The position numbers were made by a program, and so were the translations under genes. Positions 681 through 62,993 of a stretch of 64,000 nt of DNA are shown one piece after another. Source of the DNA: Haematococcus lacustris (taxonomy: Eukaryota; Chlorophyta; Chlorophyceae; Chlamydomonadales; Haematococcaceae). Position 1 is the stretch's first letter. Every line of letters starts with the position of its first letter. The stretch is taken from positions 3,153,076 to 3,217,075 of the forward strand of contig JASKMD010000024.1 in the NCBI GenBank assembly GCA_030144725.1, read 5' to 3'. The notes under the pieces were generated by a model. It worked only from the letters and a program-made list of their open reading frames with translations. It was not told the origin of the DNA and did not search any database.

Positions 681-819
681 GGTACCCATGCACATGGCAC
701 ATGGCATGGGCTGCTTACCACCTACACCATTGCTTGACCCCTTGTAGGGCTATCGTCTAGAATTGGCATGACCTGCATGCACTAATTGTAAGCTGATGAC
801 AGCTCAATGGGGAGACACA

Positions 820-1140
820 CATTACTGTGCCACAACAGGCTGTTGCTGCTGCTGGGCCTTGGGTGGCCGGTCTCGCAGCCGCTTGTAGCACAGGCCAGGG
901 TACTCCCTGCCTGCTCTGGCCACCAGCATAGCTCTAGTGGGCGCCACCTGCTCTCCCCAATGCGCTGCATGTTCAGCGCTGCATAGCAGTCCCTGTCCAG
1001 CCACCTGCCTGGCTGTGGTGCTGGCTTGGCTTTAGCAGCCTTGCCCTTGGCCCTGCCTTTACTCTTGGTGGGCTGGACGGGCCCAGCTGCCGGCTCAGCC
1101 TTGGTGCGCTTACTGACAGCATCATCACCACAACCCAGCT
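820..1140 (-). pseudogene. C-terminal fragment of a lineage-B Fanzor (TnpB-like) nuclease
   Basis: On the minus strand a Lys/Ala-rich segment leads into WLDRDCYAALNMQRIG. This has the form of the third RuvC motif of TnpB/Fanzor proteins (D-R-D-x-x-A-A-x-N, whose first Asp is catalytic). It is followed by ESRWRPLELCWW and, after a shift of one frame, by YKRLRDRPPKA and a poly-Gln tail. The frame change and the absence of upstream RuvC motifs mark it as a broken remnant. It starts immediately beyond the stop codon of the HAD phosphatase on the same strand, so it may lie in that gene's 3' untranslated region. Family assignment rests on the motif and on the related N-terminal half at 50179-50955; the match between those two pieces is inferred. 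Confidence 0.6.
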
Positions 1141-1142
1141 GA

Positions 1143-3613
1143 TTAGGGCACTGCGTGTGGGCCCTGCGCCGCCTCAATGAGATCCATGACCCCATTGAAG
1201 TCAGACACCACTGCCACAGCCCCAGCCTCCACCAACGTCTCTGCTGACTGGCCAGTGGTCAGGCCCAGCACCGGGATGCCAGCTGCCACAGCGGCCTGCA
1301 CTCCTGCGGGGGAGTCCTCCAGCACCAGCGCCCTGTGGCCCTGACCCTGCAGCTCCAGCTGCTGCAGGCCCACCAGGTAGGGGTCGGGGAAGGGCTTGGG
1401 CCGGGTGCACTCCTCCCCCAGCACAACTGCCTGCAGCCATGGCCAAGCAAACTGTCGCTCGCAGTTGCCCCTGTCGCCCAGGCAGCAGCCCCGCAAAAAG
1501 CTCACCTTGACACCTATGGCAGAAGGCGGTATCTATGCTTGGTTGTGGTGTGGAAGAAGCTGGTGAGAAGCTGTCTGTTCACCCACCTCAAACCAGGTTT
1601 GCATGCCCAGTGCGTCCAGCATGAGCTGTGCGTTGGCCCGGGGGGCGTTGGTCACTGCCACGCGGCGTAAGCCCCTCGCCTCCACCCAGGCCATCATGCG
1701 TGACAGCCCAGGCAGGCGCTGCAGGCTGCCACCTGGGGTCAGGGTCGGGGAGCGATGGCGCAACACTGCCACCACCATTGTGGGTGCAGAGCCTGCTCTA
1801 CCATCTGATCCCCTACCCACCCTGACTCGACCTCTTGGCTCCCCATCTGCATGACATGCTCCCTTCTCAACTACTACTACCTCAACAACATACTGTCTCT
1901 ACTTGTCCTCCCCTACTCTGCATCAAGATTGACGTTCAAAGTTCAACGTCCATCATCCAGGAACTGGGCAGCTGCGCCGCACCACCCTGCTTGCCGTTTT
2001 ATCTCGCTGGGTGCCTGGCTGTTGTCAGCAACCTGCCGGCCAGCTTGACTCAGCCCAACCTGCCACAGTGATATTTGTTTGTGCAATACGTAACGAACGG
2101 TTTGTGCAATACGTAACCAAAAGCTTGTTTTCTAGGCCTGGTTTCGTACCAAACGGACCCTTGCGTTGGCTGGCCGCAGCTGCTTCGTGACCTAAAAATG
2201 TCTTTTTGTGTATAGAATTTATATAAAATGTTTTTTGGCATAAGAATAATATGCTGCGATACTTGTTTCTCGTGATTAGTTGGGACCAACTGCGTAACCA
2301 GCCATGTGTTGGTCCTGGACTCTTCGTGACCAGCATCAGCTTGGCTTTTTTGGAAAAAAACTGTCCTACAACCCCCCTGTAACCTGCAGGTCTGCTCCCG
2401 CGACCTGCCGGCCTGCTTGACTCAGCCCGCCCTGCCACTAGCCCAGCCCAGGCTGTGCCCGGCAGCTACCCGATCAGCCTGACCTGCCAGCTCACGGTAG
2501 CGTTGCTCCTTCTTGGTGTAAAAGGCGGTGCGCCACTCCTCCGACTGATCCGGGAACTGCAGGAAGGCCAGATAGGGTACAGCATTGCCAGGCTGCCTTG
2601 AACACTTTGGACAGAACAACAGGGAAAGCGGGTGTTGCAGTCGGTTTACAGGGGCGAGAGCCAGACATGGCATGTCATGAAAGGCATGCCAGGCAGGGGT
2701 GTGTGCACTGGTCGTGTATGCACTACACGGGCCAGGAGCAAGGAGTGGACGAGGTCCTTGCTGTTCACCTGCCAACCCTGCATGGCTGCCCAGCAACCTG
2801 TTTGTCAGCAAGGCTTCCAGCTTGCCTACTACCACCTCATCGCTCTGACAGCCTGCTTGCTTATTATCATAGGGTGCAAATGATGCGTCCTGTCTTTTCT
2901 GAAATGCCAAAGCTGGTTCTGCAAACCAGAAGCAAACCACACCGGTCACACCAGGTCACACCAGGTCCAGCGCAATCTCTGGGTTGTGGCGGCCACTGAT
3001 GTGGAGGCGGAAGAACTCCTCAGAGATGGGTGCTCCGGCATTGAAGCCCTGCGCCACCAGCAGCTCTTGGAACCTGCACCCAAGACCCAGGGGAATGAGG
3101 AGTGGCAGCAGCACGCAAGGGGGGAGGGGAGGGGAAGAGCGCAAGAGGAAGGCGGGCACAGGGAGCGCACAGGACTCAAGATTAGGGAGGGACACTGCTG
3201 CGAAGTAGGGATGAGGCAGATGGAGCAGGGGCTGGAGTCAGGGAGGGAGGAGGGTGTGATGATGGGTAAGTGAAAGAGGGGCCACAGGATGTCTACATGC
3301 CTGGCGCAGACAGGTGTAGTTGTGTGATGTTAATGAGCCCTTCCTGTCATCTCTTTCTGGCAGCCTGAGGCTCGCATAGCCTGGATCCGTCAACAGCTGT
3401 GCATGTAGGGGCAGCTTACATGACTCACGCCTGGAAGTGCAGGGGGTCGCTGTTGCACAGTGTGCCGTCGATGTCGAAGAGCAGCCCCTGCAGCTGCGTG
3501 AAGTCAATGGCGGCAGGAGCTGCTGGCCGTGGCAGCGCCAGCACTTGAGCCGCTGCAGGTGTCTGTGCTGATGTCCGGCTCATCAAGCAACGCCTAGAAA
3601 CACCTGTGAACAC
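1143..3613 (-). CDS. HAD-superfamily phosphatase (CbbY / phosphoglycolate phosphatase-like), five exons
   Basis: Exons on the minus strand are 3429-3613, 2962-3073, 2484-2556, 1587-1732 and 1143-1430. Every junction has GT-AG borders and phases agree, giving 267 residues. Exon 1 carries HAD motif I, LLFDIDGTLCNSDPLHF, where the two Asp are nucleophile and acid/base. Exon 2 (ISEEFFRLHISGRHNPEIA) belongs to the cap. Exon 4 has motif II in VAVTNAP. Exon 5 has the motif III Lys in RPKPFPDPY and motif IV in VLEDSPAGVQAA. This order is that of subfamily IA HADs, which cleave small phosphate esters such as 2-phosphoglycolate or sugar phosphates; the substrate cannot be read from sequence. The N-terminus before residue 35 is Ala/Ser/Arg-rich and could be an organelle transit peptide. 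Met-11 is an alternative start. Intron 3 (1733-2483) contains a dispersed AT-rich element, and the 3' side abuts a Fanzor fragment. Confidence 0.9.
2031..2438 (-). repeat. AT-rich dispersed element, copy B, inside HAD intron 3
   Basis: The core, about 2070-2375, is the inverted counterpart of copy A at 395-680. The core is bracketed by two imperfect direct repeats of about 36 bases (about 2032-2067 and 2403-2438), both reading CTGCCGGCC.GCTTGACTCA and ending CCTGCCAC. These may be long target-site duplications, or outer parts of the element. It lies within an intron of the phosphatase gene and does not disturb splice sites. Confidence 0.65.
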
Positions 3614-7405: not shown

Positions 7406-8534
7406 GCCAGGCGGTCACATGGCGGTTCCATGGCGGTTGCATGGCAGTCGCTGCGCAGTTGCTTGGCTGTGGCTGGGTGGCTGCCCTCCCACCGCCAAGC
7501 CTGGCGGTTGCTAAGTGGCAGATATGGGATGAAGGCCTTGGCACGGAGGGAGAGGGGAAGGTGGTGCTAAGGGTACCATGCAAGCATGCAAACATGCAGG
7601 TGGTGCCGGATTTAAACGACCCCAAACACCAGCCTGTTGTCACTGACTGGCATGCATGAATGCATGCTGGAGGGGGTTGTCAGCACTCCCTGGTGACTGT
7701 CCAAGGTGCTGAGCCGGATAGCTGGCTGGGGCTTGTTACTATGGGCTTGGCTCCTCCCACTCTCTAGTCACCCTTGAGCTCCTTCTAATCAGGCTGCTTC
7801 AAGCAGGCCGCCACCCTGACCGTATGGGTGGGTCACTTTTGTTGGCCTGACCGTCTGGAGGGCTGTCACCCAGACCAGCCGTTTGGCTTGAGGGGCCCGC
7901 ATGGCTCAAGGACTTGCGGCAGTGGCGGCAGCCAGGCTGCATCGAGTCAGGCCCCTCTCAGCACTCGTTCCTCAGTGCCAGGCATGCTAAAAATGCATGT
8001 CAGGCTTCAGCACCTGGTGTCTCCAAGTGCATGTCAGGAAGCAGGGGTGTGCTGGCTGCTGTACCTACCCTTGGCTTGGTCCATGGCTAGAGGATGTGTA
8101 GATAGGGCCAATAGGCCCTGAGTGCCTCCAGACCAAAGTGACAAACACCCATGGCATGACTCATGTGTGACCTCCAGGGCCTGCATGGTGTTTTGCATGG
8201 TAGCTTGTGCGCTGCACTGCCGTGCATGGGGTGTACAGAGTGCAGCATTACAAGCATGTTGAGCAGGCAGCCCTGGGAATGTGGGTGAAGGGTAGCTGAG
8301 GGGAAGGTGACCACTGAGCATGAGAGCTGACAACATGCAAGTTGACGTAAAGGTCTGCTCCCGCCACAGCTCAATTGGCAGGTGGGTTGTAGGCTTGCTG
8401 TATTCGGCAGGGGGTGCATGTTTTCAACGGAGTTTATGTAAAGAGGTGTTGAAGTGGATGACGCAAAGACGCCTAACAGTCAAACAGGCAGATGCGCGGT
8501 GCACATGCATGACAACAGGCTGACAACTCCTGAA
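7406..8534. other. gene-free spacer downstream of ankyrin gene
   Basis: No exon, RNA gene or transposon could be supported. The sequence is TGC/CATG-rich, typical of the introns and spacers of this genome. Confidence 0.4.
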
Positions 8535-8765
8535 CCCCACAGCCCTCATGCTACACCAAAATAAAGCAAGAGTTGGAATCAAACCTGGCTGCGAGCTCAT
8601 CATTGTAAAGGCTACTGACAGTGCGCCTAATACGCACTTCAGCTCAGCCTTCTGGTGTGTGTGCCTATTGCCAGAGCTTCCCTAGTAGTTCCAAACCACA
8701 CACATCCCCTTTGTTAGGGGTTCATTGTTTTTTTATGTTGGGATTGTCTTGAGTTGTAGCTGGCT
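8535..8765 (-). ncRNA. conserved 3' non-coding block of Fanzor element 1 (candidate guide/omega RNA region)
   Basis: This block follows the Fanzor C-terminal exon and is shared with 33108-33340 and 61308-61560 despite lacking an ORF. On the transcript strand it contains a conserved short hairpin (stem CCCCT/AGGGG, at about 8708-8722). An A-box-like AGGCTGAGC with a B-box-like GGTTTGATTCC (10 of 11 consensus positions) lies near the far end. In TnpB and Fanzor systems the guide RNA scaffold is encoded at the 3' end of, and downstream of, the nuclease gene. Assignment here is by position and conservation only. Confidence 0.4.
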
Positions 8766-11190
8766 ATTGCTGCAGCTGGCGCTGCCACTTGCGCAACAGG
8801 GGCTTGTCGGCTATCTCCACCCAATCCTGGCCTGGCTGGCCTGGCTTTGGCATGGCTGGGCGGTTAGTCCAGTAGCACAGCTCAGTGGGACGTGGCCCTG
8901 GGCCGACTGCACAGCGGCGGATGTTTTGCGCGGCTGACACGCCCTGGTCATAGAACTTGCACATGGGTGTAAGAGATGCATGAAGTCAAGTGGTGTGCCA
9001 TGTCATGTGGGATATGCTCATGTCATGCACATATGTAGGGTTGGGTCAATGCTTACCTGGTGATGTTGTTGATGCTTGTTGAGCACATCAGGCCCCGGAC
9101 TTGGGAACGCTTTGCCATGCTTTTCACTGGCCGCAGCCACCTGCATGGACACATGGGGCAATGCATATTTGTAAGATGTCTCATCTTGACCGTACCAAGT
9201 CACCTTGACTCCACCACCTCCCAACACTGCCAACAACCCCCTATCCTCAACCCCCTCACCTGAAGGACTCAGGCGGCGCGCATATTGAGGAGGGTCTCAC
9301 TGGGGGTGTTGTCGGCTGAGCTGACCCGGCTGGTGCGGAACTCATCCACCAGCACCACACGCCCTGGCCTGAACTGCTTCACTGCCTCCTTCTGCATCTG
9401 GCTGACAGGGACACCCCTGCAACCAATGGTGCCGCTGCCCTTGAAGCCAGCTGCCCCATAGGCCAGGGCCAGGATGCGGTCCGGCCACAGCTTCTTTGCC
9501 TGCTTGTTGACCTGCAGCCACAAATAGCAAGACACAGTGGCACACACGTGTAAGGTCAGGTATAGCAGCAGCAACAGAGGCAACAACAACAGCAGCTGGC
9601 CAGGCTGCCTATCTCGTGGGTTAGGGTTGTTGGGCCTTACCTTGGCCGAGAACGAAGCCACCACGCGCATCTTGCCACAGTACAGCCTGAACCTGGCGTT
9701 GGCCCAGCGGGGCTTCGAGACCTCGGCCCACATGGCGTTGTACGTCGCCAGGACGGTGTCGGCGAACTGCCGGTACGAGGCCAGCGAGCTGGGCTTGCTG
9801 CTGACCCGCGACAGGGCTGTGAGCTGCGTCTTCACCTGGGTCAGCCATGTCTTGGTCGCCTGGGTCTGCCGCGTGATGCCGCTGTCCCGGTAGTATTGAC
9901 CTGCTGTAAGCGTCCAGTGGCGCACTGACACCACTGAGCCGTCGGCGCTGCGCTCCTCGTGCGCCACCGTGGCCATATTCGTCTTGCCCGCGTCCACGCC
10001 AAGCCACTCCGCGTGGAGGTGGGCCAGCGAATTGACTGCTCCCATGCCCTTGGCCATTCGCGGCAGCTTTGCGGGTGGCGCTGCAGGCTTGGGCCGCAGG
10101 AACATCACGCTGATGGTGACTCCATCGGTGTCCACGGTCTGTGCGAATCTGTGCTTGGGGCTGGCGAGCTTCTGGCGGCGAGGGTTAGGCAGCAATGCAT
10201 CCCACCGGCTGGCCACCTGCAGCCACCATAAACACAACCAAGGCACCTCATAAGCTTGTGTAGGCAACTGACTGAAGGCTCACACGGCAACTGACAGCAC
10301 ACAAGGCAGCTGGCTGAGCACCATAGGCTGGTACCTGACTGCAAGGAGCACTCACCTTGCTGTTTGCAGGCCCGGCAATATACCCGCCAGGGTTCGCTGG
10401 GTCAGGTAGGGCACCGTTCCTGAACTTCGTCAAGGAGGTGACCCCCTGCTCCGTCAGCACCCCCAGCATGCCGGCGTCACTCTACAAGCCGTAGAGGACG
10501 TTGGTGTCGATGAAGATGTGCCGAGCACTGCACTTGCTGGTGGGGGTGAGGGCATAGGGAGTGGGGGGGCGGGGGGGCCTCGTCAACAGGTTGGTGGGCT
10601 GAGACTGCTCCCAAAGCACCATATCAAGCTGCCAGGCTGCCATGGCTGCCTCCATCTCTCTGGTGGTGTGCACCGCATGGCGCAACAGCCGGCCACGGTT
10701 TGCTGGATCCTCCACCCAAGCGTGATTCACCACCTCCCCCTCCTCCATCCCCGGCAGGCCCCGCTGCAATGCCACCTCAGCCTGCATGGCTACAGTCACC
10801 ACCACCCCACCCCACCCTCACGCAGCAGCCAGGTGACCTCCAGCTCGCACACCATGCGGCGCACATACGTGCACTGCCACTTGGACCAGGCTGGCAGGTG
10901 CCCACCAACCAGCCCCCTCACCCCAAATCGGCGCTGGTGCTCGTTGGTGCCCAGCAAGAGATCTGGCCCCGGCCAGGGACACTGACTTCTTCAGCCTGCC
11001 AGCGAAGAGCAGCGTGAGGATGTTGCCAAAAGCGGTCTGCAGCTGCTGGCCGACGTGGTCCACCATGTTGGTGTCAGACAGGTGGCGGGGGATTGCTTCG
11101 AGGCGGGCGGGCTTCGTCGCGGTCGAAGTCGGGGTCCTCCGGCACTGCTCTAGGCCCACCCACACCGGTTCGTCTCTTCTTCCTCGCCAT
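8764..11190 (-). pseudogene. lineage-A Fanzor (TnpB-like RuvC nuclease), frameshifted
   Basis: The frame opens at 11190 (MARKKRRTGVGG). Readable segments follow in order. They are a piece near 11000-11190, joined across an internal deletion and frameshift; about 10482-10805 (NRGRLLRHAVHTTREMEAAM); 10248-10469 (MLGVLTEQGVTSLTKFRNGA); exon 9641-10216; exon 9260-9511; exon near 9064-9140; and 8764-8950. RuvC-I is WLGVDAGKTNMATVAH in exon 9641-10216. Exon 9260-9511 ends in VVLVDEFRTSRV, whose Glu sits where Fanzors carry their rearranged catalytic Glu. RuvC-III is FYDQGVSAAQNIRRCAV. The RuvC region looks intact with three well-formed introns. The N-terminal region has lost roughly 170 residues relative to copy 4, and a stop follows WLLREGG. 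The Cys pairs of the usual zinc ribbon are not visible. These proteins would act in the nucleus on DNA. Confidence 0.7.
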
Positions 11191-11226
11191 AAACAATAGC
11201 GACGCGAGGCAGCAACATATACAAAG

Positions 11227-13437
11227 GATCGCCCCGCCCCGCCCCGCCCCGCCCCGCCCCGCCCCGCCCCGCCCCGCCCCGCCCCGCCCCGCCCCGCCCC
11301 GCCCCGCCCCGCCCCGCCCCGCCCCGCCCCGCCCCGCCCCGCCCCGCCCCGCCCCGCCCCGCCCCGCCCCGCCCCGCCCCGCCCCGCCCCGCCCCGCCCC
11401 GCCCCGCCCCGCCCCGCCCCGCCCCGCCCCGCCCCGCCCCGCCCCGCCCCGCCCCGCCCCGCCCCGCCCCGCCCCGCCCCGCCCCGCCCCGCCCCGCCCC
11501 GCCCCGCCCCGCCCCGCCCCGCCCCGCCCCGCCCCGCCCCGCCCCGCCCCGCCCCGCCCCGCCCCGCCCCGCCCCGCCCCGCCCCGCCCCGCCCCGCCCC
11601 GCCCCGCCCCGCCCCGCCCCGCCCCGCCCCGCCCCGCCCCGCCCCGCCCCGCCCCGCCCCGCCCCGCCCCGCCCCGCCCCGCCCCGCCCCGCCCCGCCCC
11701 GCCCCGCCCCGCCCCGCCCCGCCCCGCCCCGCCCCGCCCCGCCCCGCCCCGCCCCGCCCCGCCCCGCCCCGCCCCGCCCCGCCCCGCCCCGCCCCGCCCC
11801 GCCCCGCCCCGCCCCGCCCCGCCCCGCCCCGCCCCGCCCCGCCCCGCCCCGCCCCGCCCCGCCCCGCCCCGCCCCGCCCCGCCCCGCCCCGCCCCGCCCC
11901 GCCCCGCCCCGCCCCGCCCCGCCCCGCCCCGCCCCGCCCCGCCCCGCCCCGCCCCGCCCCGCCCCGCCCCGCCCCGCCCCGCCCCGCCCCGCCCCGCCCC
12001 GCCCCGCCCCGCCCCGCCCCGCCCCGCCCCGCCCCGCCCCGCCCCGCCCCGCCCCGCCCCGCCCCGCCCCGCCCCGCCCCGCCCCGCCCCGCCCCGCCCC
12101 GCCCCGCCCCGCCCCGCCCCGCCCCGCCCCGCCCCGCCCCGCCCCGCCCCGCCCCGCCCCGCCCCGCCCCGCCCCGCCCCGCCCCGCCCCGCCCCGCCCC
12201 GCCCCGCCCCGCCCCGCCCCGCCCCGCCCCGCCCCGCCCCGCCCCGCCCCGCCCCGCCCCGCCCCGCCCCGCCCCGCCCCGCCCCGCCCCGCCCCGCCCC
12301 GCCCCGCCCCGCCCCGCCCCGCCCCGCCCCGCCCCGCCCCGCCCCGCCCCGCCCCGCCCCGCCCCGCCCCGCCCCGCCCCGCCCCGCCCCGCCCCGCCCC
12401 GCCCCGCCCCGCCCCGCCCCGCCCCGCCCCGCCCCGCCCCGCCCCGCCCCGCCCCGCCCCGCCCCGCCCCGCCCCGCCCCGCCCCGCCCCGCCCCGCCCC
12501 GCCCCGCCCCGCCCCGCCCCGCCCCGCCCCGCCCCGCCCCGCCCCGCCCCGCCCCGCCCCGCCCCGCCCCGCCCCGCCCCGCCCCGCCCCGCCCCGCCCC
12601 GCCCCGCCCCGCCCCGCCCCGCCCCGCCCCGCCCCGCCCCGCCCCGCCCCGCCCCGCCCCGCCCCGCCCCGCCCCGCCCCGCCCCGCCCCGCCCCGCCCC
12701 GCCCCGCCCCGCCCCGCCCCGCCCCGCCCCGCCCCGCCCCGCCCCGCCCCGCCCCGCCCCGCCCCGCCCCGCCCCGCCCCGCCCCGCCCCGCCCCGCCCC
12801 GCCCCGCCCCGCCCCGCCCCGCCCCGCCCCGCCCCGCCCCGCCCCGCCCCGCCCCGCCCCGCCCCGCCCCGCCCCGCCCCGCCCCGCCCCGCCCCGCCCC
12901 GCCCCGCCCCGCCCCGCCCCGCCCCGCCCCGCCCCGCCCCGCCCCGCCCCGCCCCGCCCCGCCCCGCCCCGCCCCGCCCCGCCCCGCCCCGCCCCGCCCC
13001 GCCCCGCCCCGCCCCGCCCCGCCCCGCCCCGCCCCGCCCCGCCCCGCCCCGCCCCGCCCCGCCCCGCCCCGCCCCGCCCCGCCCCCGCCCCGCCCCGCCC
13101 CGCCCCGCCCCGCCCCGCCCCGCCCCGCCCCGCCCCGCCCCGCCCCGCCCCGCCCCGCCCCGCCCCGCCCCGCCCCGCCCCGCCCCGCCCCGCCCCGCCC
13201 CGCCCCGCCCCGCCCCGCCCCGCCCCGCCCCGCCCCGCCCCGCCCCGCCCCGCCCCGCCCCGCCCCGCCCCGCCCCGCCCCGCCCCGCCCCGCCCCGCCC
13301 CGCCCCGCCCCGCCCCGCCCCGCCCCGCCCCGCCCCGCCCCGCCCCGCCCCGCCCCGCCCCGCCCCGCCCCGCCCCGCCCCGCCCCGCCCCGCCCCGCCC
13401 CGCCCCGCCCCGCCCCGCCCCGCCCCGCCCCGCCCCC
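11227..13437 (-). repeat. (GGGGC)n satellite array 1, about 2.2 kb
   Basis: This is a nearly perfect tandem array of the pentamer GCCCC (GGGGC on the minus strand), about 440 units. It has a single one-base insertion, at about 13081-13087. It starts 37 bases upstream of the Fanzor start codon and ends in unrelated sequence. All six frames stay open because the unit lacks stops, giving huge meaningless ORFs. The G-rich strand is expected to form G-quadruplexes. Confidence 0.98.
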
Positions 13438-15711: not shown

Positions 15712-16211
15712 NNNNNNNNNNNNNNNNNNNNNNNNNNNNNNNNNNNNNNNNNNNNNNNNNNNNNNNNNNNNNNNNNNNNNNNNNNNNNNNNNNNNNNNNN
15801 NNNNNNNNNNNNNNNNNNNNNNNNNNNNNNNNNNNNNNNNNNNNNNNNNNNNNNNNNNNNNNNNNNNNNNNNNNNNNNNNNNNNNNNNNNNNNNNNNNNN
15901 NNNNNNNNNNNNNNNNNNNNNNNNNNNNNNNNNNNNNNNNNNNNNNNNNNNNNNNNNNNNNNNNNNNNNNNNNNNNNNNNNNNNNNNNNNNNNNNNNNNN
16001 NNNNNNNNNNNNNNNNNNNNNNNNNNNNNNNNNNNNNNNNNNNNNNNNNNNNNNNNNNNNNNNNNNNNNNNNNNNNNNNNNNNNNNNNNNNNNNNNNNNN
16101 NNNNNNNNNNNNNNNNNNNNNNNNNNNNNNNNNNNNNNNNNNNNNNNNNNNNNNNNNNNNNNNNNNNNNNNNNNNNNNNNNNNNNNNNNNNNNNNNNNNN
16201 NNNNNNNNNNN
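15712..16211. other. assembly gap (500 N)
   Basis: Exactly 500 unknown bases, a conventional placeholder. The real distance is unknown. It lies between a C-rich tract and an exact duplicate of the Fanzor 5' end. Confidence 1.
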
Positions 16212-16445
16212 CTGCCAGCGAAGAGCAGCGTGAGGATGTTGCCAAAAGCGGTCTGCAGCTGCTGGCCGACGTGGTCCACCATGTTGGTGTCAGACAGGTG
16301 GCGGGGGATTGCTTCGAGGCGGGCGGGCTTCGTCGCGGTCGAAGTCGGGGTCCTCCGGCACTGCTCTAGGCCCACCCACACCGGTTCGTCTCTTCTTCCT
16401 CGCCATAAACAATAGCGACGCGAGGCAGCAACATATACAAAGGAT
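16212..16445 (-). pseudogene. duplicate of the Fanzor 5' end (fragment beside gap)
   Basis: About 232 bases match 10995-11228 with no difference that I can see, including the MARKKRRTGVGG start (at about 16406) and the following internal-deletion junction. It is cut by the gap on its 3' side and runs into a second (GGGGC)n array on its 5' side, exactly as in copy 1. It is either a true second insertion or an assembly duplication. Confidence 0.85.
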
Positions 16446-18293
16446 CGCCCCGCCCCGCCCCGCCCCGCCCCGCCCCGCCCCGCCCCGCCCCGCCCCGCCC
16501 CGCCCCGCCCCGCCCCGCCCCGCCCCGCCCCGCCCCGCCCCGCCCCGCCCCGCCCCGCCCCGCCCCGCCCCGCCCCGCCCCGCCCCGCCCCGCCCCGCCC
16601 CGCCCCGCCCCGCCCCGCCCCGCCCCGCCCCGCCCCGCCCCGCCCCGCCCCGCCCCGCCCCGCCCCGCCCCGCCCCGCCCCGCCCCGCCCCGCCCCGCCC
16701 CGCCCCGCCCCGCCCCGCCCCGCCCCGCCCCGCCCCGCCCCGCCCCGCCCCGCCCCGCCCCGCCCCGCCCCGCCCCGCCCCGCCCCGCCCCGCCCCGCCC
16801 CGCCCCGCCCCGCCCCGCCCCGCCCCGCCCCGCCCCGCCCCGCCCCGCCCCGCCCCGCCCCGCCCCGCCCCGCCCCGCCCCGCCCCGCCCCGCCCCGCCC
16901 CGCCCCGCCCCGCCCCGCCCCGCCCCGCCCCGCCCCGCCCCGCCCCGCCCCGCCCCGCCCCGCCCCGCCCCGCCCCGCCCCGCCCCGCCCCGCCCCGCCC
17001 CGCCCCGCCCCGCCCCGCCCCGCCCCGCCCCGCCCCGCCCCGCCCCGCCCCGCCCCGCCCCGCCCCGCCCCGCCCCGCCCCGCCCCGCCCCGCCCCGCCC
17101 CGCCCCGCCCCGCCCCGCCCCGCCCCGCCCCGCCCCGCCCCGCCCCGCCCCGCCCCGCCCCGCCCCGCCCCGCCCCGCCCCGCCCCGCCCCGCCCCGCCC
17201 CGCCCCGCCCCGCCCCGCCCCGCCCCGCCCCGCCCCGCCCCGCCCCGCCCCGCCCCGCCCCGCCCCGCCCCGCCCCGCCCCGCCCCGCCCCGCCCCGCCC
17301 CGCCCCGCCCCGCCCCGCCCCGCCCCGCCCCGCCCCGCCCCGCCCCGCCCCGCCCCGCCCCGCCCCGCCCCGCCCCGCCCCGCCCCGCCCCGCCCCGCCC
17401 CGCCCCGCCCCGCCCCGCCCCGCCCCGCCCCGCCCCGCCCCGCCCCGCCCCGCCCCGCCCCGCCCCGCCCCGCCCCGCCCCGCCCCGCCCCGCCCCGCCC
17501 GCCCCGCCCCGCCCCGCCCCGCCCCGCCCCGCCCCGCCCCGCCCCGCCCCGCCCCGCCCCGCCCCGCCCCGCCCCGCCCCGCCCCGCCCCGCCCCGCCCC
17601 GCCCCGCCCCGCCCCGCCCCGCCCCGCCCCGCCCCGCCCCGCCCCGCCCCGCCCCGCCCCGCCCCGCCCCGCCCCGCCCCGCCCCGCCCCGCCCCGCCCC
17701 GCCCCGCCCCGCCCCGCCCCGCCCCGCCCCGCCCCGCCCCGCCCCGCCCCGCCCCGCCCCGCCCCGCCCCGCCCCGCCCCGCCCCGCCCCGCCCCGCCCC
17801 GCCCCGCCCCGCCCCGCCCCGCCCCGCCCCGCCCCGCCCCGCCCCGCCCCGCCCCGCCCCGCCCCGCCCCGCCCCGCCCCGCCCCGCCCCGCCCCGCCCC
17901 GCCCCGCCCCGCCCCGCCCCGCCCCGCCCCGCCCCGCCCCGCCCCGCCCCGCCCCGCCCCGCCCCGCCCCGCCCCGCCCCGCCCCGCCCCGCCCCGCCCC
18001 GCCCCGCCCCGCCCCGCCCCGCCCCGCCCCGCCCCGCCCCGCCCCGCCCCGCCCCGCCCCGCCCCGCCCCGCCCCGCCCCGCCCCGCCCCGCCCCGCCCC
18101 GCCCCGCCCCGCCCCGCCCCGCCCCGCCCCGCCCCGCCCCGCCCCGCCCCGCCCCGCCCCGCCCCGCCCCGCCCCGCCCCGCCCCGCCCCGCCCCGCCCC
18201 GCCCCGCCCCGCCCCGCCCCGCCCCGCCCCGCCCCGCCCCGCCCCGCCCCGCCCCGCCCCGCCCCGCCCCGCCCCGCCCCGCCCCGCCCCGCC
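16446..18293 (-). repeat. (GGGGC)n satellite array 2, about 1.85 kb
   Basis: Same pentamer as array 1, about 370 units, with one missing base near 17498-17502. It ends abruptly in unique sequence (CATCTGATGTC), unlike the end of array 1. Confidence 0.98.
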
Positions 18294-32796: not shown

Positions 32797-33107
32797 ATCT
32801 TAATGACCATGTTTTATTGCATGTGCTTATCAGTGCTTCGTTATACTCTGTCATGTAGCCTCCCTTGATCTTCATGACTTCCACAACAACTCCAGTGATA
32901 CGTTTCCTAAGGGGGGTGGTTGTTACGGCTAAAGGGGTCGAAGGTAAGTGAAGCTTGGTTACCCAATAAGCCGGCAGTTTATTTAGGTCGCCCACGCTAC
33001 TGTACGTACAACCTCCCTTTTGCCACGGCCAGAGAGGCACCGCTAGGAAACAAATGCTGAGTAGGATTACCGATGCGGCGAAATGACAGAAATGAACTCA
33101 ATTCCTA

Positions 33108-33340
33108 AACCCTACAGCCCTCACGCTACAACAAAATAAAGCATGAGTTGGAATCGATCTAGGTTGATAGCTCACCATTGTAAAGGCAACTGCTAGTGTG
33201 CGTAATGCCCACTTCAACTCAGCCTTCTGGTGTGTGTGCCTGTGCTAGTGCCTGTGCCTGTGCCACACACATCCCCTTTGTGAGGGGTTCAATGTTTTGT
33301 TATCTTGGATTGTCTTGAGTTGTAGCTGGCTACCGTTGCC
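33108..33340 (-). ncRNA. conserved 3' non-coding block of Fanzor element 2 (candidate guide RNA region)
   Basis: Same block as 8535-8765. The CCCCT/AGGGG hairpin is kept at about 33265-33285. Most of the flanking blocks, such as CACACACCAGAAGGCTGAG on the transcript strand, are kept too. The middle spacer has diverged into GTGCCTGT repeats. Confidence 0.4.
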
Positions 33341-34190
33341 ACTTGCGCAACGAGGCCTTGCCTCTCCACCCAATCCTGGCCTGGCTGGCCCGGCTTTGGC
33401 ATGGTAGGGCGGTAAGTCTAGTAGCACAACTCAGTGGGATGTGGCCCTCGGCCGACTGCACAGCGGCGAATGTTTTGCGCGGTTGACACGCCCTGGTCAT
33501 AGAAACTGCACATGGGTGTAAGAGATGCATGAAGTCAAGTGGTGTGCCATGTCATGTGACACTTGATCATGTCATGCACATTTGTAGGATTGGGTCTGTG
33601 CTTACCTGATGATGTTGTCGTGCTTATTGAACACATCAGGCCCCTGACTTGGGCTCGCTTTGCCATGCTTTTGACTGGTTGCAGCCACCTGCATGGACAC
33701 ATGGGGCAATGCACATTTGTGAGATGTTTCCTTGCCCCTTCACTCTGTAAGATGTTTCATCTTGACCCTACCCAACCCTATCCCAGCACTACCGAACCCT
33801 CAAGCTGAGTTTAACCTCAACCCTCTCACAAGAAAGACTCAGGCATCATATTGAGGAGGGCCTCACTGGGGGTGTTGTCAGCTGAGCTGACCCGGCTGGT
33901 GCGGAACTCATCCACCAGCACCACACGCCCTGCCCTGAACTGCTTCACTGCCTCCTTCAGCATCTGGCTGACAGGGACACCCCTGCAACCAATGGTGCCG
34001 CTGCCATTGATGCCAGCTGCCCCATGGGCCAGGGCCAGGATGCGGTCCGGCCACAGCTTCTTTGCCTGCTTGTTGACTTGCAGCCACATATAGCAAGACA
34101 CAGTGGCACACATGTGTAAAGTTAGGTGTAGCAACAGCAACAGAGGCAGCAACAGCAGCAGCTGGCCAAATGAGCTGACTTTGGTCTGGG
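33108..34190 (-). mobile_element. Fanzor element copy 2, 5'-truncated
   Basis: This matches the 3' half of copy 1. The minus strand reads exon VNKQAKKLWPDRILALAHGA to VVLVDEFRTSRV (about 33839-34081), then the LLNMMPESF end. The exon near 33600-33690 follows, then FYDQGV and the RuvC-III-like AQNIRRCAV near 33420-33510, where a stop interrupts LCY. Similarity is lost beyond about 34190, so the N-terminus, RuvC-I and 5' end are missing. Relative to copy 1 it carries ordinary point differences. It lies between RPN12 and the next gene and is not functional. Confidence 0.75.
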
Positions 34191-37181: not shown

Positions 37182-37469
37182 CAGGGCTGTGGCAATACGG
37201 GGTAAGTTACGGATATCCGGGTGGTAATACTTACGCACGTATATCCGTAAGTAATACGGGTCAAATCCGGACCAACCGCCATCCGTATGTGTGAAGCACC
37301 CTGTGACCTTTAAAGCCCTGCAGCAGCAGCAGTGCGTCGCGACCAGCGCACATCGACTGCCATGGAGCTGGGGTCACCACGCGCCACTCAGCAGATGCAG
37401 ACCCTCTTGCGACGATCATCCATGGCCACGGCAGAGGATGTGCAGCAGATCCCCGGCGTCTCTAGGCGA
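37182..37469 (+). mobile_element. hAT-like element end, 288-base solo fragment
   Basis: This is the near-exact reverse complement of 41507-41794. It starts with the TIR CAGGGCTGTGGCAATACGG and includes the first codons of the hAT ORF (MRRDQRTSTAMELGSP). It is flanked by ATCGACAT on the left and TTCGACAT on the right, possibly an imperfect 8-bp duplication, and abuts the larger hAT element. Confidence 0.7.
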
Positions 37470-37994
37470 TTCGACATACAGTCAGGGCTGTGGGATACGG
37501 GCTTACGGATTACGGTTCCGCTTACGTGCTTACCGTAATACGTGGTCACACGCGTAAGGTTCCGCCTAACCAATCCGTAAGGTTCCGCCGTAAGGGGCCC
37601 ATGCAAGCATGCGGGGCATCTTTTTCGCCTTTCCCCTTCCGCCTTCCCTGCTTCCGCCGACCCTGCTTCCCCTGTTTCCGCCAACCTAGAGTACTTGTTT
37701 ACTTTGTTACTTTGTGTGTTTGCAACCTTTACTCATCCCAACCTCTCCCAGCCCAATATCAGCCATCAACATCAACTTCAGCCTCGTGCCTAAGCAGGTC
37801 TGCACTGTGACAGCAGCTGGTGGGTTGCTAGGCTGCCAAACCTTCAACCCTCCCCATCTCAGCCATGCAATGAAGTCATTTATGCAGTGAACTGGCGCCC
37901 TTGTAGCGTGCGCCACTGACGTGAGAGATGCTGACGTGAGAGACTGACGTGAGAGATGCCTTCCAGCACCTGCACGACATGGGGTAGTAGGAGG

Positions 37995-38108
37995 TGTTGC
38001 GGGTCAGGCCAAGGCCATCCGCTTTCCTTGCTTAGGGTGATATGTGACATCGGCGTACTTAGCCTGCGTGGTGCTCTGCGATGATTGGCACGGCTGTGCC
38101 CCATCGCA
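37995..38108 (+). repeat. copia 5' LTR
   Basis: 114 bases, TG...CA ends, identical to the 3' LTR at 41129-41242. Confidence 0.93.
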
Positions 38109-38122
38109 GGTTATGGGCCCAC
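38109..38122 (+). promoter_or_regulatory. copia primer-binding site (initiator tRNA-Met anticodon arm)
   Basis: GGTTATGGGCCCAC directly follows the 5' LTR. It is complementary to the anticodon stem-loop of plant-type initiator tRNA-Met, which contains GTGGGCCCATAACC. Priming by an internally cleaved half tRNA is known for Drosophila copia and some related elements. The complementarity is to the tRNA sequence as I remember it. Confidence 0.8.
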
Positions 38123-38222
38123 CCACTTCAATGTGCGGGAATCCAGAAATCTTTCAGATGGTGTGCACCAAGCCGTACCCCGTAAGTCTCGCCTGGTGAG
38201 CGCACCGGCGAGCAGGGAAGGG

Positions 38223-40589
38223 ATGGCGATGCCAAACGCGGCTGCGATTCAAAAGTTAAGTGGGGACAACTGGGACGAATGGCATTTCGAGGTCAAGAAT
38301 GCTCTAGCGTGCGCGGGGCTAGGCGCAGCTCTGCGGGTCACAGCTCTAGGAGGGCCGGGGGAAAGGCGGAGTGGGGCAGGTAGTTTGGGGTCGGGTAGCG
38401 GAGCTGCGGCTGGCACCACCCCCATCTCTGTTGCAGCTGAGGCTGCAGCAGACGCCCTGCATGCGGCAGCTGCGGCTGCCACACCCACCGCATCGGCTGC
38501 GGCCGCGTCTGCCCGTGCCCTGTCGGTCGATGTCGACGAGCGCGCACACGCCTTCATCTGTAGCACGGTCAACGTGCGCAAGTATAGGGGCCTTTGTGAG
38601 CGGCATACTACAGCCCGGGGGCTGTGGGAGGCTTTGCGGGATATGCATGTCAGCAAGGTGCTGGCATCCCGCTCCCTCTTGGTTAGGCAGGCTGCCAGCC
38701 TGCGCATGTCTGAGGAGGAGTCAGTACAGGACTATTGGGCCCGGGCAGAAGATCTCCATGAGCAGCTTAACCTGACTGAGCCTTATGGGGAAACCCTTAC
38801 ACAGGCCTTGGAGGGTCTGCCAGCCGGTTTCGACATTGTTGTGAATGAGGTCTTACGCAAGCCAGTAGCGTCGCGCCCTACTTTTGTTGAGGTCTTGCCT
38901 TTGCTGTTGGTCCAAGAGCGGGTGCTTACCCGTCGGCAGCCAGCTGCCGTTGCTCTCTTTGCGCGTCTTGGTGGCAGCCAGGGTGGAGCCAGCAACAGGG
39001 GTAGGGGCCAGGGTCGCAGCGGTGGGGTTGGAGGTAGCGGGTTCCAGGGGGAATGTTACAAGTGCTTCCAGTGGGGGCATCAGGCTCACCAATGCCCCAA
39101 CCGCCCTCGCTCCCCGTCACCTTCACCCCGGGGTCACTCCCCGGTCACCTACAGCGGGGGGGCCAGCAGGCCACCCACTCCTGGGGGTGGTAGAGCTCCA
39201 GCCTGGTGTGGGAGCAGTTCCGGCCGCGGCCGTGACCCCAGCCCTTCTGTCAGCAGGTACCCTGCCTCCACCTCCCGCAGCAGTGTGGCCTTCCAGGGGT
39301 TGGCAGTGTCTAATGCCATGTCGGTGGTCTCCAAGCCGCTGCTCCGGGGGGAGTGGTTGGTGGACTCTGGGTGCAGTAGGCACCTGACGCCGCACCGGGA
39401 TATCCTGCAGGGCTACGAGCCCTTGCCTGTGCCGCACACTATCATTTGCGGCAACGGCAGCACCATGGCAGCCACCGGCCAGGGCTCAGTGCAGTTCCGG
39501 GGTGCAGGTGGGGAGCTCACACTCCTCAATGTGCTGCATGTGCCAGTAGCAGAAGGCAGCCTAGTGTCTGTGGGAAAAGCCACCAGGGCGGGGGGTGTGG
39601 TGCATTTCACCCCGCATGGGTGCTGCATCAACATGCCGGGGACTGGGTGCAGCATCACAGCTCGGCAGATTGAGGAAGACCTTTTCCTACTTGACAGCAA
39701 GCCTGTGCTTGCAGCTGACAGCTACAGAATGGCTGCCCGCGCCTGTGAACCCATGACTCCGCATCACCGCCTGAGTCACCCTGGTTACCGGCAGCACCGG
39801 TTCGTTGCAGTGGAGCATCAGGGCCTGGGGGGGGCAGTGAAGCACGTCAGCAAGAGCGTGGTGTTCGACGAACAAGCGGTGTTGCATCGCTATGCGCCCG
39901 CTCCCGTCTCCGGTCAAGCTGCGCTGGCTGCCCCGCCGGAGGGCGAAGCATCCAGGGGGGGGGTAGGCACAGAGGGTGCAGCTGGGGATAGCTTGGGTAG
40001 CAGGGGAGGGACCCCTGCTGTCACCCCCACCGTCACCCCCGCCTCAAGCAGCAGCGTCAGCAGCAGAGAGTGCGGGGGACAAGCGGGCGGTGGGGGACAA
40101 GCGGGCAGTGGGGGTGTACCCCCTGCTGCCCTTATGGGTAGTCCAGGCTGGGACGGAGAAGGTGGGGATGGTGCAGGGTTAGGTGGGGCCGGTGTGGTAG
40201 GCTCAGGTGGGGACGGAGTAGGGGGAATGGAGCGCACGCCAGAGTCTTTGGCTGCGCCCGCACCAGAGCAAGCATCGCCTCTGCTGCGCCGCGGCGAGCG
40301 TGTACGCAAAGCTGTCAGATTTGCAGACTATGTCACCGTGTGCTACTCAGCACGCAATGTCAGCTGCAACAGCAGTGAGGGTGTTGGGAGCAGTGGGAGA
40401 AGGGAGAGGGTCGCTTTGGTGGGCAGCAGGGCAACTGCAATTGGCTTCTCCACCAAGCGTCGCTTCAGCAAGGCTGTGTCGAGGCCCGAAGCTGAGGAGT
40501 GGGGACGCGCCGTGGATGCCAAGATGGCCAGAGTTCAACTCCTGCCAGCTGCTGCTTCACTCTGGCATGAGGCTGGTGATGGAGGGTGA
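38223..40589 (+). pseudogene. copia gag-protease polyprotein with internal deletions
   Basis: Translation begins MAMPNAAAIQKLSGDNWDEW, a copia gag N-terminus (UBN2-type gag). A CCHC zinc knuckle, CYKCFQWGHQAHQC, follows near residue 280. The aspartic protease is marked by WLVDSGCSRHLTPHRDIL. A pre-integrase motif HHRLSHPGY then jumps straight to the integrase end (KSVVFDEQAVL). A Ser/Gly/Pro-rich linker leads to the beginning of reverse transcriptase (EEWGRAVDAKMA). The frame then stops. In another frame, 40560-40740 encodes the RNase H C-terminus (ADMVADALTKALPGQKF). The integrase DDE core and the reverse transcriptase YVDD region are missing, so the element is not self-sufficient. Gag could still be made. 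Confidence 0.88.
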
Positions 40590-41128
40590 ACAGCTGAATC
40601 ACATGGGTGGCAGGATGTGGTTGTCCTCCTGCATGATGTTCCCCTTTTGCCCAACGGCAGACATGGTGGCAGACGCGCTCACCAAGGCGCTACCGGGGCA
40701 GAAGTTTGGGAAGTGCAAGGAGGGCATGGGGGTTGGCTAGACTTGCTTGTGCTGGAGTGTGTGGGAGCTTTCTGACTGCGTACAGCGGTTGGGATGGAGT
40801 CTTTGGAGTAGAGCTGTTGACATGGAGTTTCTCTTAGCTGCGTACAGCAGTAGTGGCGTTCGATGCAAATGTACTTGTGTCTTGCTTGTTGCATTCACTT
40901 CACTCTGCATGTAGCTTTGCTCTTTGCTGTCATCTAGTGCTCACGTGTGTTAGCATCATCTCTTCCAACATCACATCTTCATTATGTCATCAACTTCACT
41001 TGTCTTGTGTGTGAGCTTGCATATAAAACACGCATCCGTCATGAACGCACTTTGAGTCATGCATGTAGTTCTCTTCTTATGACGTACTCTGCGTTCTTCT
41101 GCTTTGCTAGCCTAGGCCTGAGTGGGAG

Positions 41129-41242
41129 TGTTGCGGGTCAGGCCAAGGCCATCCGCTTTCCTTGCTTAGGGTGATATGTGACATCGGCGTACTTAGCCTG
41201 CGTGGTGCTCTGCGATGATTGGCACGGCTGTGCCCCATCGCA
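41129..41242 (+). repeat. copia 3' LTR
   Basis: Identical to the 5' LTR and followed by GGAGG, the target duplication. Confidence 0.93.
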
Positions 41243-41247
41243 GGAGG

Positions 41248-50178: not shown

Positions 50179-50955
50179 GCCGGCTGAGCTTGCTGCTGCC
50201 AGGTGCTGGAGGTGGGGCTTGATCGGTGCTAGCCACCACTCTGTGTCACGGCGGGCATTGTTCAGGCCACTGCCATGCTTGACCTGGCCCTTGGTCAGCT
50301 TCCACCGGCGCAGCTGGTCTGCCAGCAGCTGGCCTGGCGTCGGATCCCACACCCCTGAGGCTGCACTGACTGCCTGGGTGACGCCGGGGTCAATGCCTAC
50401 CCCAATCTGAGTGGCTGGGTTAAACACCAACTGCCGTATTGCAGCTAGGCCCTTGCCAATGTGGGGCAGTCCCAACTCATGGGCCGCTACATCTGCTGCA
50501 CCTGGGGCTGCCGCTGGGCTGCTGTTGCTGCTAGAGGGGCCTGCTGCTGAGGGTGGAGCAGGAGGGGTTGGGAGGGGGCGGGTGTAGTGCACACATACAC
50601 TGACACCATCAGTCTCTACCGTCCTCTCGAACTCAAAGCCTTGGTTGGCCAGCTTGCCTGTGCTGAACCACCTGTCCCAATGGTTGCTACGGGCTGGCTC
50701 TGCGGTGAACACCTTTGCTGTCTCCCTTGTGAGCCCCAGCTGCTGGCACACCCCATGCAACACCCTGCTGTCCACCTTGACGAAGTGCACCCCTACCCTG
50801 GCCAAGGGGGTGAGGGTGAAGGGGGGTGGGCAGGTCAGGACCCTAGGACCTACCCTACGCCCGCCACGCTTTGGCGGCCCTGGCACGGGTGGGGTGGGGG
50901 GTGCTAGGACCTGCGCTGTGATGAACAGAAGCGATGTGAGCAGCGCGGAGCTCAC
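50179..50955 (-). pseudogene. lineage-B Fanzor (TnpB-like nuclease), N-terminal half cut by gap
   Basis: The minus-strand frame from 50955 is open to the gap. After a Pro-rich start it reads HFVKVDSRVLHGVCQQLGLT, then FERTVETDGVSVCVHYTRP and an Ala/Ser/Pro linker. RuvC-I follows in ATQIGVGIDPGVTQAVSAAS, where the Asp of GIDPG is the expected catalytic residue. The TDGVS..V...RP block and the position of RuvC-I align with lineage A (TVDTDGVTISVMFLRP and WLGVDAGKTN). The sequences otherwise differ strongly, hence a separate lineage. Whether the gene is intact cannot be judged because RuvC-II/III lie in the gap. The C-terminal fragment at 820-1140 is of the kind expected for this lineage. Confidence 0.65.
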
Positions 50956-51409
50956 TGGACTGCACAGTTGCAGCGGACCACACTGCGACTACGACGAACC
51001 TTGTTTTCGCGGGCTTTCAATCGGAAGCGGCTCTTGCCCCGCGGCACTTGGGCGCTTCCTCGGAGGCATCGCGCCACTAGGCTCATATCTACTAACACCT
51101 GCTGATACCTACTTATACCCTGGAGGCGATGTCTCTTACTCTCGCACCTCCAAAGGGCACCTCCAAAGGGCACTTTCAAAGGGCGCTGCCGGTGCAGGGC
51201 TGTACACACACAGTATTGCGACAATCGGCAGTGGTTTTGTCCCTGCATCCCTATCTGCATAGCGGTCGCTTGCCATGACAACATTGGGATATCCTGCCTG
51301 CCCATCCTGCCTTCTTTTTACATGCTCCTGATTGCGCCACCTTAGTCACATCACCTTAACTTCCTGGCTGCTGCGTGGGGCCTGTGGGGTCTTGCAGCAT
51401 TACACAGCA

Positions 51410-60433: not shown

Positions 60434-61307
60434 AGTCCTGGCTAGTCATAGTCTTGTCTTGGTTTGCGGGTATAGCTCAATCGCCCTTCAGTTACATTCA
60501 CTTGACAGCGGTCACATTAACCACGTTCGCGGACTGTGGGCAACCTCGCTCAGCTCCAACTCAACTGTACATCTTCCACAGCAGGGTAGCGTGTTGCCCA
60601 CTGGGCCGGTGAGGCAGGTGCTGGGCCAGGTGCGGCAATGAGGCTTGGCGTCCCACACCTTGTTGTATTCAAGGCGTGACACCTGACATCATCTCATCCC
60701 ATCTCATCCCATCCCATCCCATCACTTGCCATGGCAGCAGTGGCTGCAATGGTAGGGGAGCCAGGCTTGGCGGAAGATGGCAGTGTGACTAGGGGTCAAG
60801 CCTAGGAAGACATGGGGGGAGTAGGCTGCCATGTGCTATGGTTGTTGCTGCTTGCAAGGTCCGGGGAGGCGGCTTGCATGTGACATGCTGCTGTAGCTGC
60901 CAATTGGTCCGGCTCCTCCTGCCGCCCACCTTGCCCCCACGTATCTCTTGGTACAGCAAGCACGCAGGGGCAGCAGCACAAAGGCAGGCACAGGCATGAG
61001 GGGTATGGCATCAGGGCAGGGGGCAAGGAAGGTAAGAGGGCTTGAGGGCAGTGGTGGGGTCTAGGGGTGAGGGGCAACCTCTACACCCCTACAGCTGCTC
61101 CCGCCCCAACCCTTCCCTTGCAGATGCCACTTGCCTGCGGTCAACAACCAGACCCGGCCCTGCCTGCATTGCCATCTTCACGCCCTGACGCACGTAGCTA
61201 ACCACAACGCCTGGATTTCTTTGCAGCCGCAGTTTTGGCGAAAGTGCGTCTGCAACTCGAGCATGTGCCCGCGTTGGCATGAACAACATTGCCCTTGACA
61301 AGTTTTA
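60434..61307. other. spacer before Fanzor element copy 4
   Basis: No gene. A short CATCCCATCTCATC simple repeat lies at 60690-60725. Part of 61100-61290 may be an exon-like remnant, but nothing is recognisable. Confidence 0.35.
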
Positions 61308-61560
61308 AGCCCTACAGCCCTCATGCCACACCAAAGTAAAGCATGAGTTGTAATCAAACACAGGTTGCGAGATCTCTGTTGTAAAGGCTATTGACAGTGT
61401 GCCTAATGCCCACTTCAGCTCAGCCTTCTGGTGTGTGTGCCTCCAGGTCTACTACTAGCAAGAGCTCTACCCTACTCTATAGCTCTTACTCACACACATC
61501 CCCTTTGTGAGGGGTTTGGTATCTTGTTTTCTTGGGTTGTATAGCTGTAGCTGGCTATCG
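61308..61560 (-). ncRNA. conserved 3' non-coding block of Fanzor element 4 (candidate guide RNA region)
   Basis: Third copy of the block. The CCCCT/AGGGG hairpin at about 61500-61516 and the CACACCAGAAGGCTGAGC segment are kept, while the spacer between them is longer and unrelated. Retention in a copy that lost its nuclease fits a cis-acting or guide function. Confidence 0.4.
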
Positions 61561-61569
61561 CTTGGGGCT

Positions 61570-62993
61570 GGCGAGCTTTTGGCGGCGAAGGTCGGGCAGC
61601 AATGCGTCCCATCGGTTGGCCACCTGCGGCCACCATGAAGACAACCAGGGCACCTCATCAGCCTGTGTAGGACTGACTGGCACCTGACTGCAAGGATCAC
61701 TCACATGGCTGTCTTTGAGCCCTTCAATGTACTTGCCCGGCTCCGCTGGGTCAGGTAGGGCACCGTTCCTAAACTTCGTCATGGAGGTGACCCCTGCCTC
61801 CGTCAGCACCCCCAACATGCCGGCGTCACGCATCATGCCGTAGAGGTCCCGTGTGTCAATGAAGACATGCCGAACACGGCACTTGCTGGAGGGGGTGATG
61901 GCATAGGGTGTGGGGGGGCGGGGGGGCCTAGGCAGCAGCCCGGGGTTTGTGAGCTCAGCCTGCTGCCAGGGCACCATATCCAGCTGCCAGGCTGCCATGG
62001 CTGCCTCCATCTCTCTGGTGGTGTGCACCGCATGGCGCAGCAGCCGGCCCCGGTTGGCTGGATTCTCCACCCAGTCATGATCCACCAGCTCCCCCTCCTC
62101 TAGCCCCAGCAGGCCCCGCTGCAATGCCACCTCAGCCTCCATGGCTGCAGACTGCACCACCCCACCCTCCTCCAGCAGCCAGCTGACGTCCAGCCCGCAC
62201 ACCATGCGGCGCACTCCCGCTTTGACCAGGCTGGCAGGTGCCCACCAGCCAGCCCCCAGAATCCAAATCTGCGCCGGTGTTCCTCAGTGCCCACCAGGAC
62301 CTTAGCCCCAGCCAGGGACACTGACTTCTTGAGCCTGCCAGCGAAGAGCAGCGTGAGCATGTTGCTGAAAGCTGTCTCCAGCTGCTTGCCGACGTGGTCC
62401 ACCATGTTGGAGTCTAATAGGTAGCGTGGGATTGCTGCGAGGCGGGCGCGAAGGTCAGGGTGCGCGGCCAGCACGGCAGCCACTGCCGCGTTTGGCTGAG
62501 TGTTCGCGCCGTTTCCGGGCAGGCCGCGGCACAGCTGCAGGAACAGGTTCCTGCAGCTCAGGTCCGGGATGGCTGCCTGGGAGACTAGGATGTCTGTGTA
62601 CACGGGCTGGCCGTGCAGGCCGAGCGGGTCGGCTATGTAGATGGTAAACAAACCGCGCACGAGTAAGCCCAACAGCAGGCTGGCGAGCACCGCCCGCTCG
62701 CTGCAGGCCTCCACTCGTGGCTGCACAGCGTCGGCCAGGAAGGCATCCCAAAGCTCTTGCGGGAGGTGGTCGATGAGGTGGGCTAGCTTACACTTCCTGC
62801 CGTGGTATGTGTTGTGACTATCGCGGGCAGCGCGGGCCTCTCCGGAAGCCTTTCTATTGCGCTCCGCTTCGGTTAGGTCTGGCTGTAGTGCCTCGTCGCG
62901 GTCCAAAATGTCATCGTCTGGGTCCTCCGGCACTGGCTTAGGCACGGTTCGTCGTTTTCTTAGCCATAGAAAACAAGAACGTGAAGCCATCAC
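61570..62993 (-). pseudogene. lineage-A Fanzor N-terminal region (RuvC-less)
   Basis: The minus-strand frame starts at 62993 (MMASRSCFLWLRKRRTVPKP) with an acidic PEDPDDDILDRDEA stretch and a helical region (LIDHLPQELWDAFLADAVQP, LLLGLLVRGLFTIYIADPLG, LPGNGANTQPNAAVAAVLAA). Next come YLLDSNMVDHVGKQLETAFS and LLFAGRLKKSVSLAGAKVLV. A frame change near 62220 leads into MVCGLDVSWLLEEGG, NRGRLLRHAVHTTREMEAAM, VRHVFIDTRDLYGMM and MTKFRNGALPDPAEPGKY. It ends in VANRWDALLPDLRRQKLASP just before where RuvC-I would follow. It supplies the residues missing from copy 1. It has no nuclease active site. Confidence 0.7.

Follow-up and report, generated by a model that had tools for sequence, protein, structure and literature searches.

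What are the related protein fragments strewn along a 64,000-nt stretch of the Haematococcus lacustris genome (contig JASKMD010000024.1, 8,050,159 bases, in a genome of 308 Mb; hereafter the window), and what can be said of their intact relatives? A first-pass annotation made from the DNA letters saw six fragments of one protein class over 62 kb and took them for Fanzors, eukaryotic TnpB-like RNA-guided nucleases. Mapping by tblastn with seven family proteins gave matches far above chance (E-values down to 0.0), and the fragments stand, through tblastn or a match to second-lineage proteins; the single class does not, since the window holds two related lineages, the fragment near 50 kb being 24-28% identical by tblastn to the lineage of copy 1 (Table 1). 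We consider it probable that a very abundant Fanzor1-type element accounts for copy 1 and its neighbours, all of them broken copies, and we predict that its intact relatives act as RNA-guided DNA nucleases with the element's own 3' end as scaffold.

Fold and Catalytic Residues Point to Fanzor1

Fanzor identity was judged by a fold test set beforehand, which a missing RuvC/RNase H fold or a best match to some other transposase would have failed, and here the first-pass proposal held: the seven PDB structures closest to the family model are Fanzor1 without exception, and the predicted structure has the fold by which Fanzor1 is recognized in Yoon et al. 2023 (PMC10711439). The best fold matches, the solved Fanzor1 proteins SpuFz1, GtFz1 and PpFz1, have the aspartate-glutamate-aspartate (D-E-D) triad, the DPG motif and the relocated glutamate in common with the family, from which they differ in overall sequence (8-14% identity). 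Relatives were taken as the best 120 of 265, of 230 and of 712 proteins above threshold, with motif censuses covering 154 and 120 proteins from these best-120 lists; the best 120 of the 265 are all H. lacustris proteins (120/120).

According to Yoon et al., Fanzors carry DPG, and their glutamate lies six residues ahead of the zinc finger (PMC10711439). In the first lineage, DPG stands at RuvC-I in 115 of 118 readable proteins and RD, with the third catalytic aspartate, at RuvC-III in 110 of 113, while the relocated glutamate E678 is present in 80 of 85 alignment rows (the other five being gaps) and is followed, after six intervening residues, by S685 at the position of the first cysteine. As aligned, the family fits these signatures to the residue. 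It is also, by the measure of codon divergence, under purifying selection: the median ratio of nonsynonymous to synonymous divergence (dN/dS), taken over the first exons of 28 open copies among 30 fetched, is 0.385 between subfamilies and 0.346 and 0.297 within them, medians on which the upstream-identical tandem copies L007-L010 of C151 weigh.

The Zinc Ribbon Is Lost from a Retained Catalytic Site

A feature that the first-pass annotation overlooked lies between RuvC-II and RuvC-III. S685, S686 and A687 each occupy 82 of 85 rows (three gaps), so that serine stands at the first-cysteine position in 82 of 82; position 688, the second cysteine site, is mostly V, R, Y or D, and among the proteins readable between RuvC-II and RuvC-III, a CxxC is present there in 1 of 90 from the first lineage and in 0 of 71 from the second. 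Because the spacing of E678 is intact, the cysteine positions are replaced and CxxC is nearly absent, the alignment indicates loss of the zinc ribbon with retention of the D-E-D triad. The TnpB/Fanzor motif of Bao and Jurka 2013, described with the Chlamydomonas elements discussed below, has a C4 zinc finger that separates [TS][TS]xx from RD (PMC3627910), and SpuFz1 has a CCCC zinc finger (PMC10432273), whereas the Haematococcus family has neither. As Yoon et al. ascribe a zinc finger to "many" Fanzors, not all (PMC10711439), we class these proteins as a zinc-less variant of Fanzor1, a lineage in which the position of the TNB domain is kept and its metal site lost.

A Conserved 3' End Is a Candidate Guide RNA Scaffold

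The 3' ends of 21 copies (alignment A3) give a consensus fold of four predicted stems, and one subfamily A and one subfamily B 3' end each fold better than 199 of 200 shuffles. Between the subfamilies, stem 1 and the 5' strand of stem 2 show a divergence of 0.00; stem 3 diverges by 0.045, stem 4 by 0.13 and the 3' region as a whole by 0.094. The neutral comparisons are higher: 0.296 in intron 1 (11 x 2 copies only), 0.353 right after the stop codon and 0.306 for dS. The loop of stem 2 differs among copies in length and sequence. The last ~190 nt are, on these alignments and predicted folds, conserved beyond neutral sites and stably folded, and likely supply the guide RNA of the system as a candidate omega-RNA. 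In SpuFz1, too, it is the stretch from the stop codon to the end of the element that carries the omega-RNA (PMC10432273). Two 3' ends searched against Rfam gave no match up to E 0.1.

Many Insertion Sites Share a YTG and Variable Target Duplications

First read in 13 fetched and 3 window regions, the 3' end proved fixed: similarity between copies stops at ...TTCAGGAGTTG in subfamily A or ...TTAAAACTTG in subfamily B, apart from a few variants. The ends on the start-codon side are ragged, and filler of variable length separates the left target duplication from the conserved leader; inspection of the compared copies by eye revealed no terminal inverted repeats. Among 31 copies with both flanks, 5 lacked a readable 3' end and 7 had variant ends and were excluded, leaving 19 for the duplication test. 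In 13 of these 19, at least 7 nt of the right flank recur in the 500 bp that precede the start codon (7.3% in shuffled pairings), and at least 9 nt do so in 10 (1.2%). With the end position left floating, duplications of 9-15 nt are found in 15 of 26 copies, a figure without control; L028 and L030 have one common target and are not independent. In all 13 copies the left repeat is preceded by the trinucleotide TTG or CTG, the 9-15 bp target duplications starting with this YTG or directly after it. Because the left site is CTG in several copies that end in TTG, the terminal TTG is taken to be the element's own and YTG to be a target preference.

That the family is dense and that a full-length copy exists elsewhere had both been anticipated by the first-pass annotation. 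A 33-nt pattern allowing up to 3 mismatches places the 3' end at 1,375 sites in the genome (686 + 689; reversed control, 0). On the protein side, 56 of 13,151 first-look candidates were scored, and all 56 have a first-exon match to the related protein P0001, 45 of them without a stop; the first exon of P0001 itself is found in the genome at 100%. At least four tandem copies of the element lie on C151:1-20635 (L007-L010, L068), with a period of 5.1 kb and identity over 1,500 nt upstream.

A Possible Homing Cycle

In SpuFz1, the guide RNA spans the interval from stop codon to right end and a further 14-15 nt of flanking sequence (PMC10432273). By analogy, transcription through the 3' end of the Haematococcus element would add flanking host DNA as guide. 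As this flank starts with the target duplication, the guide would match the empty allele directly beside YTG, which would make YTG the target-adjacent motif, and the left junction of the filled allele would match only the 6-12 nt of duplication past YTG. Cutting of the empty allele and repair from the filled one would then keep or copy the element. Our proposal, tentative and held with rather more doubt than belief, is that the Haematococcus RNA-guided nuclease works without a zinc ribbon, with the ~190-nt 3' end as scaffold and a YTG motif written by its own insertion sites, and that each insertion gains a guide against its own empty site, a homing drive that would have seeded more than 1,000 ends. 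The anatomy of the element (fixed 3' end, YTG, target duplication) lets scaffold, guide and target-adjacent motif be predicted before experiment. With this family, the role of Fanzors for eukaryotic transposons could be probed in an alga that grows in culture, and genome engineers would find compact nucleases independent of zinc of interest.

Alternative Readings

Weighing against our reading are observations on the protein, on its 3' end and on its insertion sites. The family model has low confidence (mean predicted local distance difference test score, pLDDT, of 55; predicted template modelling score of 0.50), an earlier AlphaFold model built from 13 rows reached a pLDDT of 38, and whole-chain superpositions on solved Fanzors are loose. 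The family profile found no related match among PDB sequences up to E 1; Pfam PF07282 matches weakly in 5 of 13 first-lineage members (best E 0.0081) and is found in 7 of 9 second-lineage proteins, above the cut-off in P0178 only, where it sits in residues 2-64, a stretch from a further variant. Pfam and PDB sequence searches with the window pieces, and an NCBIfam search, likewise gave no relevant match. The missing significant Pfam, NCBIfam or PDB sequence match of the first lineage could suit an unrelated transposase family or a chance resemblance of RuvC motifs, a reading that the Fanzor1 fold matches and the spacing-exact signatures make very improbable. Another reading accepts Fanzor1 by descent and holds that the family is no longer a nuclease system, its 3' end being only a DNA end for a transposase acting in trans. 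Of 53 predicted pairs only 1 covaries, which would also suit a 3' end conserved as DNA for a transposase to recognize and not as RNA, and the lost zinc-ribbon cysteines, together with the loss of the third aspartate in copy 1 and the 33-kb copy, point the same way; the retention of D-E-D, RD and DPG across the first lineage at the frequencies given above, a dN/dS of 0.30-0.39, and a stem 2 that is invariant around a loop changing in length and sequence nevertheless render this reading unlikely.

At the insertion sites, 6 of the 19 tested copies have no duplication reaching 7 nt, and the three window copies gave none either. The element's 3' end, at 8524 and in relatives L032-L044, also reads TTG before the flank, so that its right junction combines TTG with a full match and a bare YTG motif would permit self-cutting; a longer motif or some protection would be needed to spare it. 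Two further readings would move the element by other means. Target-primed reverse transcription by a long interspersed nuclear element (LINE) acting in trans, with the Fanzor gene as passenger, would accord with 3' ends that are fixed, 5' ends that are ragged and carry filler, and duplications varying from 9 to 15 bp, but the copies retain introns, neither poly(A) nor a simple-repeat tail lies beyond the 3' end of those read, and the same pattern in Chlamydomonas CRe-1 to 3 has been ascribed to one-ended transposition of Helitron2 type (PMC3627910), so that we find a LINE rather improbable. Helitron2-type one-ended rolling-circle transposition in trans is the stronger contender, although we lean slightly away from it: the anatomy is that of CRe-1 to 3, the genome holds 18 Helitron_like_N matches, seven of them strong, and four copies form the 5.1-kb tandem array on C151, but the 3' end was not found in ten Helitron_like_N loci, which at 3.1-3.5 kb each are too short to reach element ends. 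A candidate shared terminus, GGGGTTCAGG in Helitron locus L071, was rejected because its context differs.

Relation to Known Fanzor Elements

In anatomy the family departs from SpuFz1, which has one open reading frame and 30-nt inverted repeats, whereas the Haematococcus gene has introns and the compared copies lack such repeats to the eye. Its pattern is the one described for CRe-1, CRe-2 and CRe-3 of Chlamydomonas reinhardtii, Fanzor1 genes in non-autonomous Helitron2 elements, which are reported to have multi-exon Fanzor1 and intact 3' ends, to be often truncated at the 5' end or deleted internally, and to show target duplications of variable length with additional sequence after the left one; their target is TTTT, against YTG here (PMC3627910). 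The most abundant repeat of another green alga, Auxenochlorella, is likewise described as a Fanzor-encoding element, there called uncharacterized (PMC12633428). Among the open-literature papers on Fanzor that were listed, none gave an account of this Haematococcus family, subscription papers lying outside the search.

In BFVD, proteins predicted for the green-algal Tetraselmis virus 1 gave fold matches with better E-values than any solved Fanzor, which fits the virus-borne spread proposed in PMC3627910. A tblastn search of phages found no match, and in a scan of viral contigs, 101 stretches fitted a pattern and none was confirmed.

Window Copies and Neighbouring Features

Table 1. Fanzor-related and adjoining features of the window
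Feature	Position	Strand	Basis or remark
Copy 1, broken Fanzor1-type element	8524..11229	minus	tblastn to P0001, reading frames, 3' end from copy comparison
Candidate omega-RNA region, 3' untranslated end, four predicted stems	8524..8720	minus	alignment, fold, divergence
Predicted GT-AG introns of copy 1	10217-10355, 9512-9640, 9141-9259, 8956-9056	minus	sequence reading
N-terminal part of copy 1 repeated	16212..16445	minus	after 500-N gap 15712-16211
5'-truncated copy, C-terminal part and 3' end	33099..34168	minus	tblastn, copy comparison
Internally deleted copy, N-terminal half fused directly to element 3' end	61299..62960	minus	tblastn, copy comparison
Second-lineage piece (GVGIDPGVTQ)	50179..50988	minus	tblastn; cut by 500-N gap 49679-50178
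C-terminal RuvC-III piece of second lineage, LDRDCYAALNMQRIGESRWRPLELC	782..1258	minus	reading frame
tblastn fragment matches	11190-8767, 16406-16214, 34113-33364, 50865-50200, 62960-61561	minus	seven family proteins
(CGCCC)n array, ~441 units	11230..13436		Tandem Repeats Finder; adjoins copy 1 where its 5' end is truncated
Second (CGCCC)n array	16446-18293		after N-terminal repeat of copy 1

Copy 1, on the minus strand, has its start codon at 11190, a stop near 8764 and the element end at 8524; residues ~31-180 of P0001 are deleted internally, and frame breaks and in-frame stops are also present. The motifs quoted in the first-pass annotation are there as given, but DQGVSAAQNI, offered as RuvC-III, is a mutated form without the catalytic aspartate (DQG for the family's DRD), and RuvC-I reads DAG for DPG. 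The 33-kb copy, 84.8% identical to copy 1, also has DQG, and the loss of the third aspartate is thus common to both. Because of this loss, copy 1 is expected to be inactive. That spliceosomal introns split the nuclease, as the annotation had it, agrees with the four predicted introns, which are consistent with the exon-by-exon matches of relatives and the first two of which flank the RuvC-I exon.

The stretch 16212-18293 repeats 10996-13078 at 99.95% identity directly after the 500-N gap, and may be an assembly overlap instead of a genuine additional copy. The two (CGCCC)n arrays, nearly pure and ~2.2 and ~1.8 kb long, each adjoin the same truncated Fanzor 5' end; an array as part of the element was rejected, none adjoining the start codon in 30 other copies compared.

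The second lineage comprises 712 proteins at E up to 0.01. Its piece at 782-1258 was not matched by tblastn with the seven family proteins, and the string that it carries recurs at the C-terminus of second-lineage proteins. Nearby, an inverted repeat pair (401-648 / 2112-2360, 85% identical) has recurring CGTAACC/CGTGACC motifs; it was considered as the 3' end of the second lineage and rejected for want of support.

Elsewhere in the window, a perfect 286-bp inverted repeat (37182-37467 / 41509-41794) encloses a 125-bp direct repeat (37986-38110 / 41121-41244, 98% identical) and an 834-aa open reading frame that carries both CYKCFQWGHQAHQC, which is zinc-knuckle-like, and a string like that of a copia protease. 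The region 37182-41794 looks like nested mobile elements.
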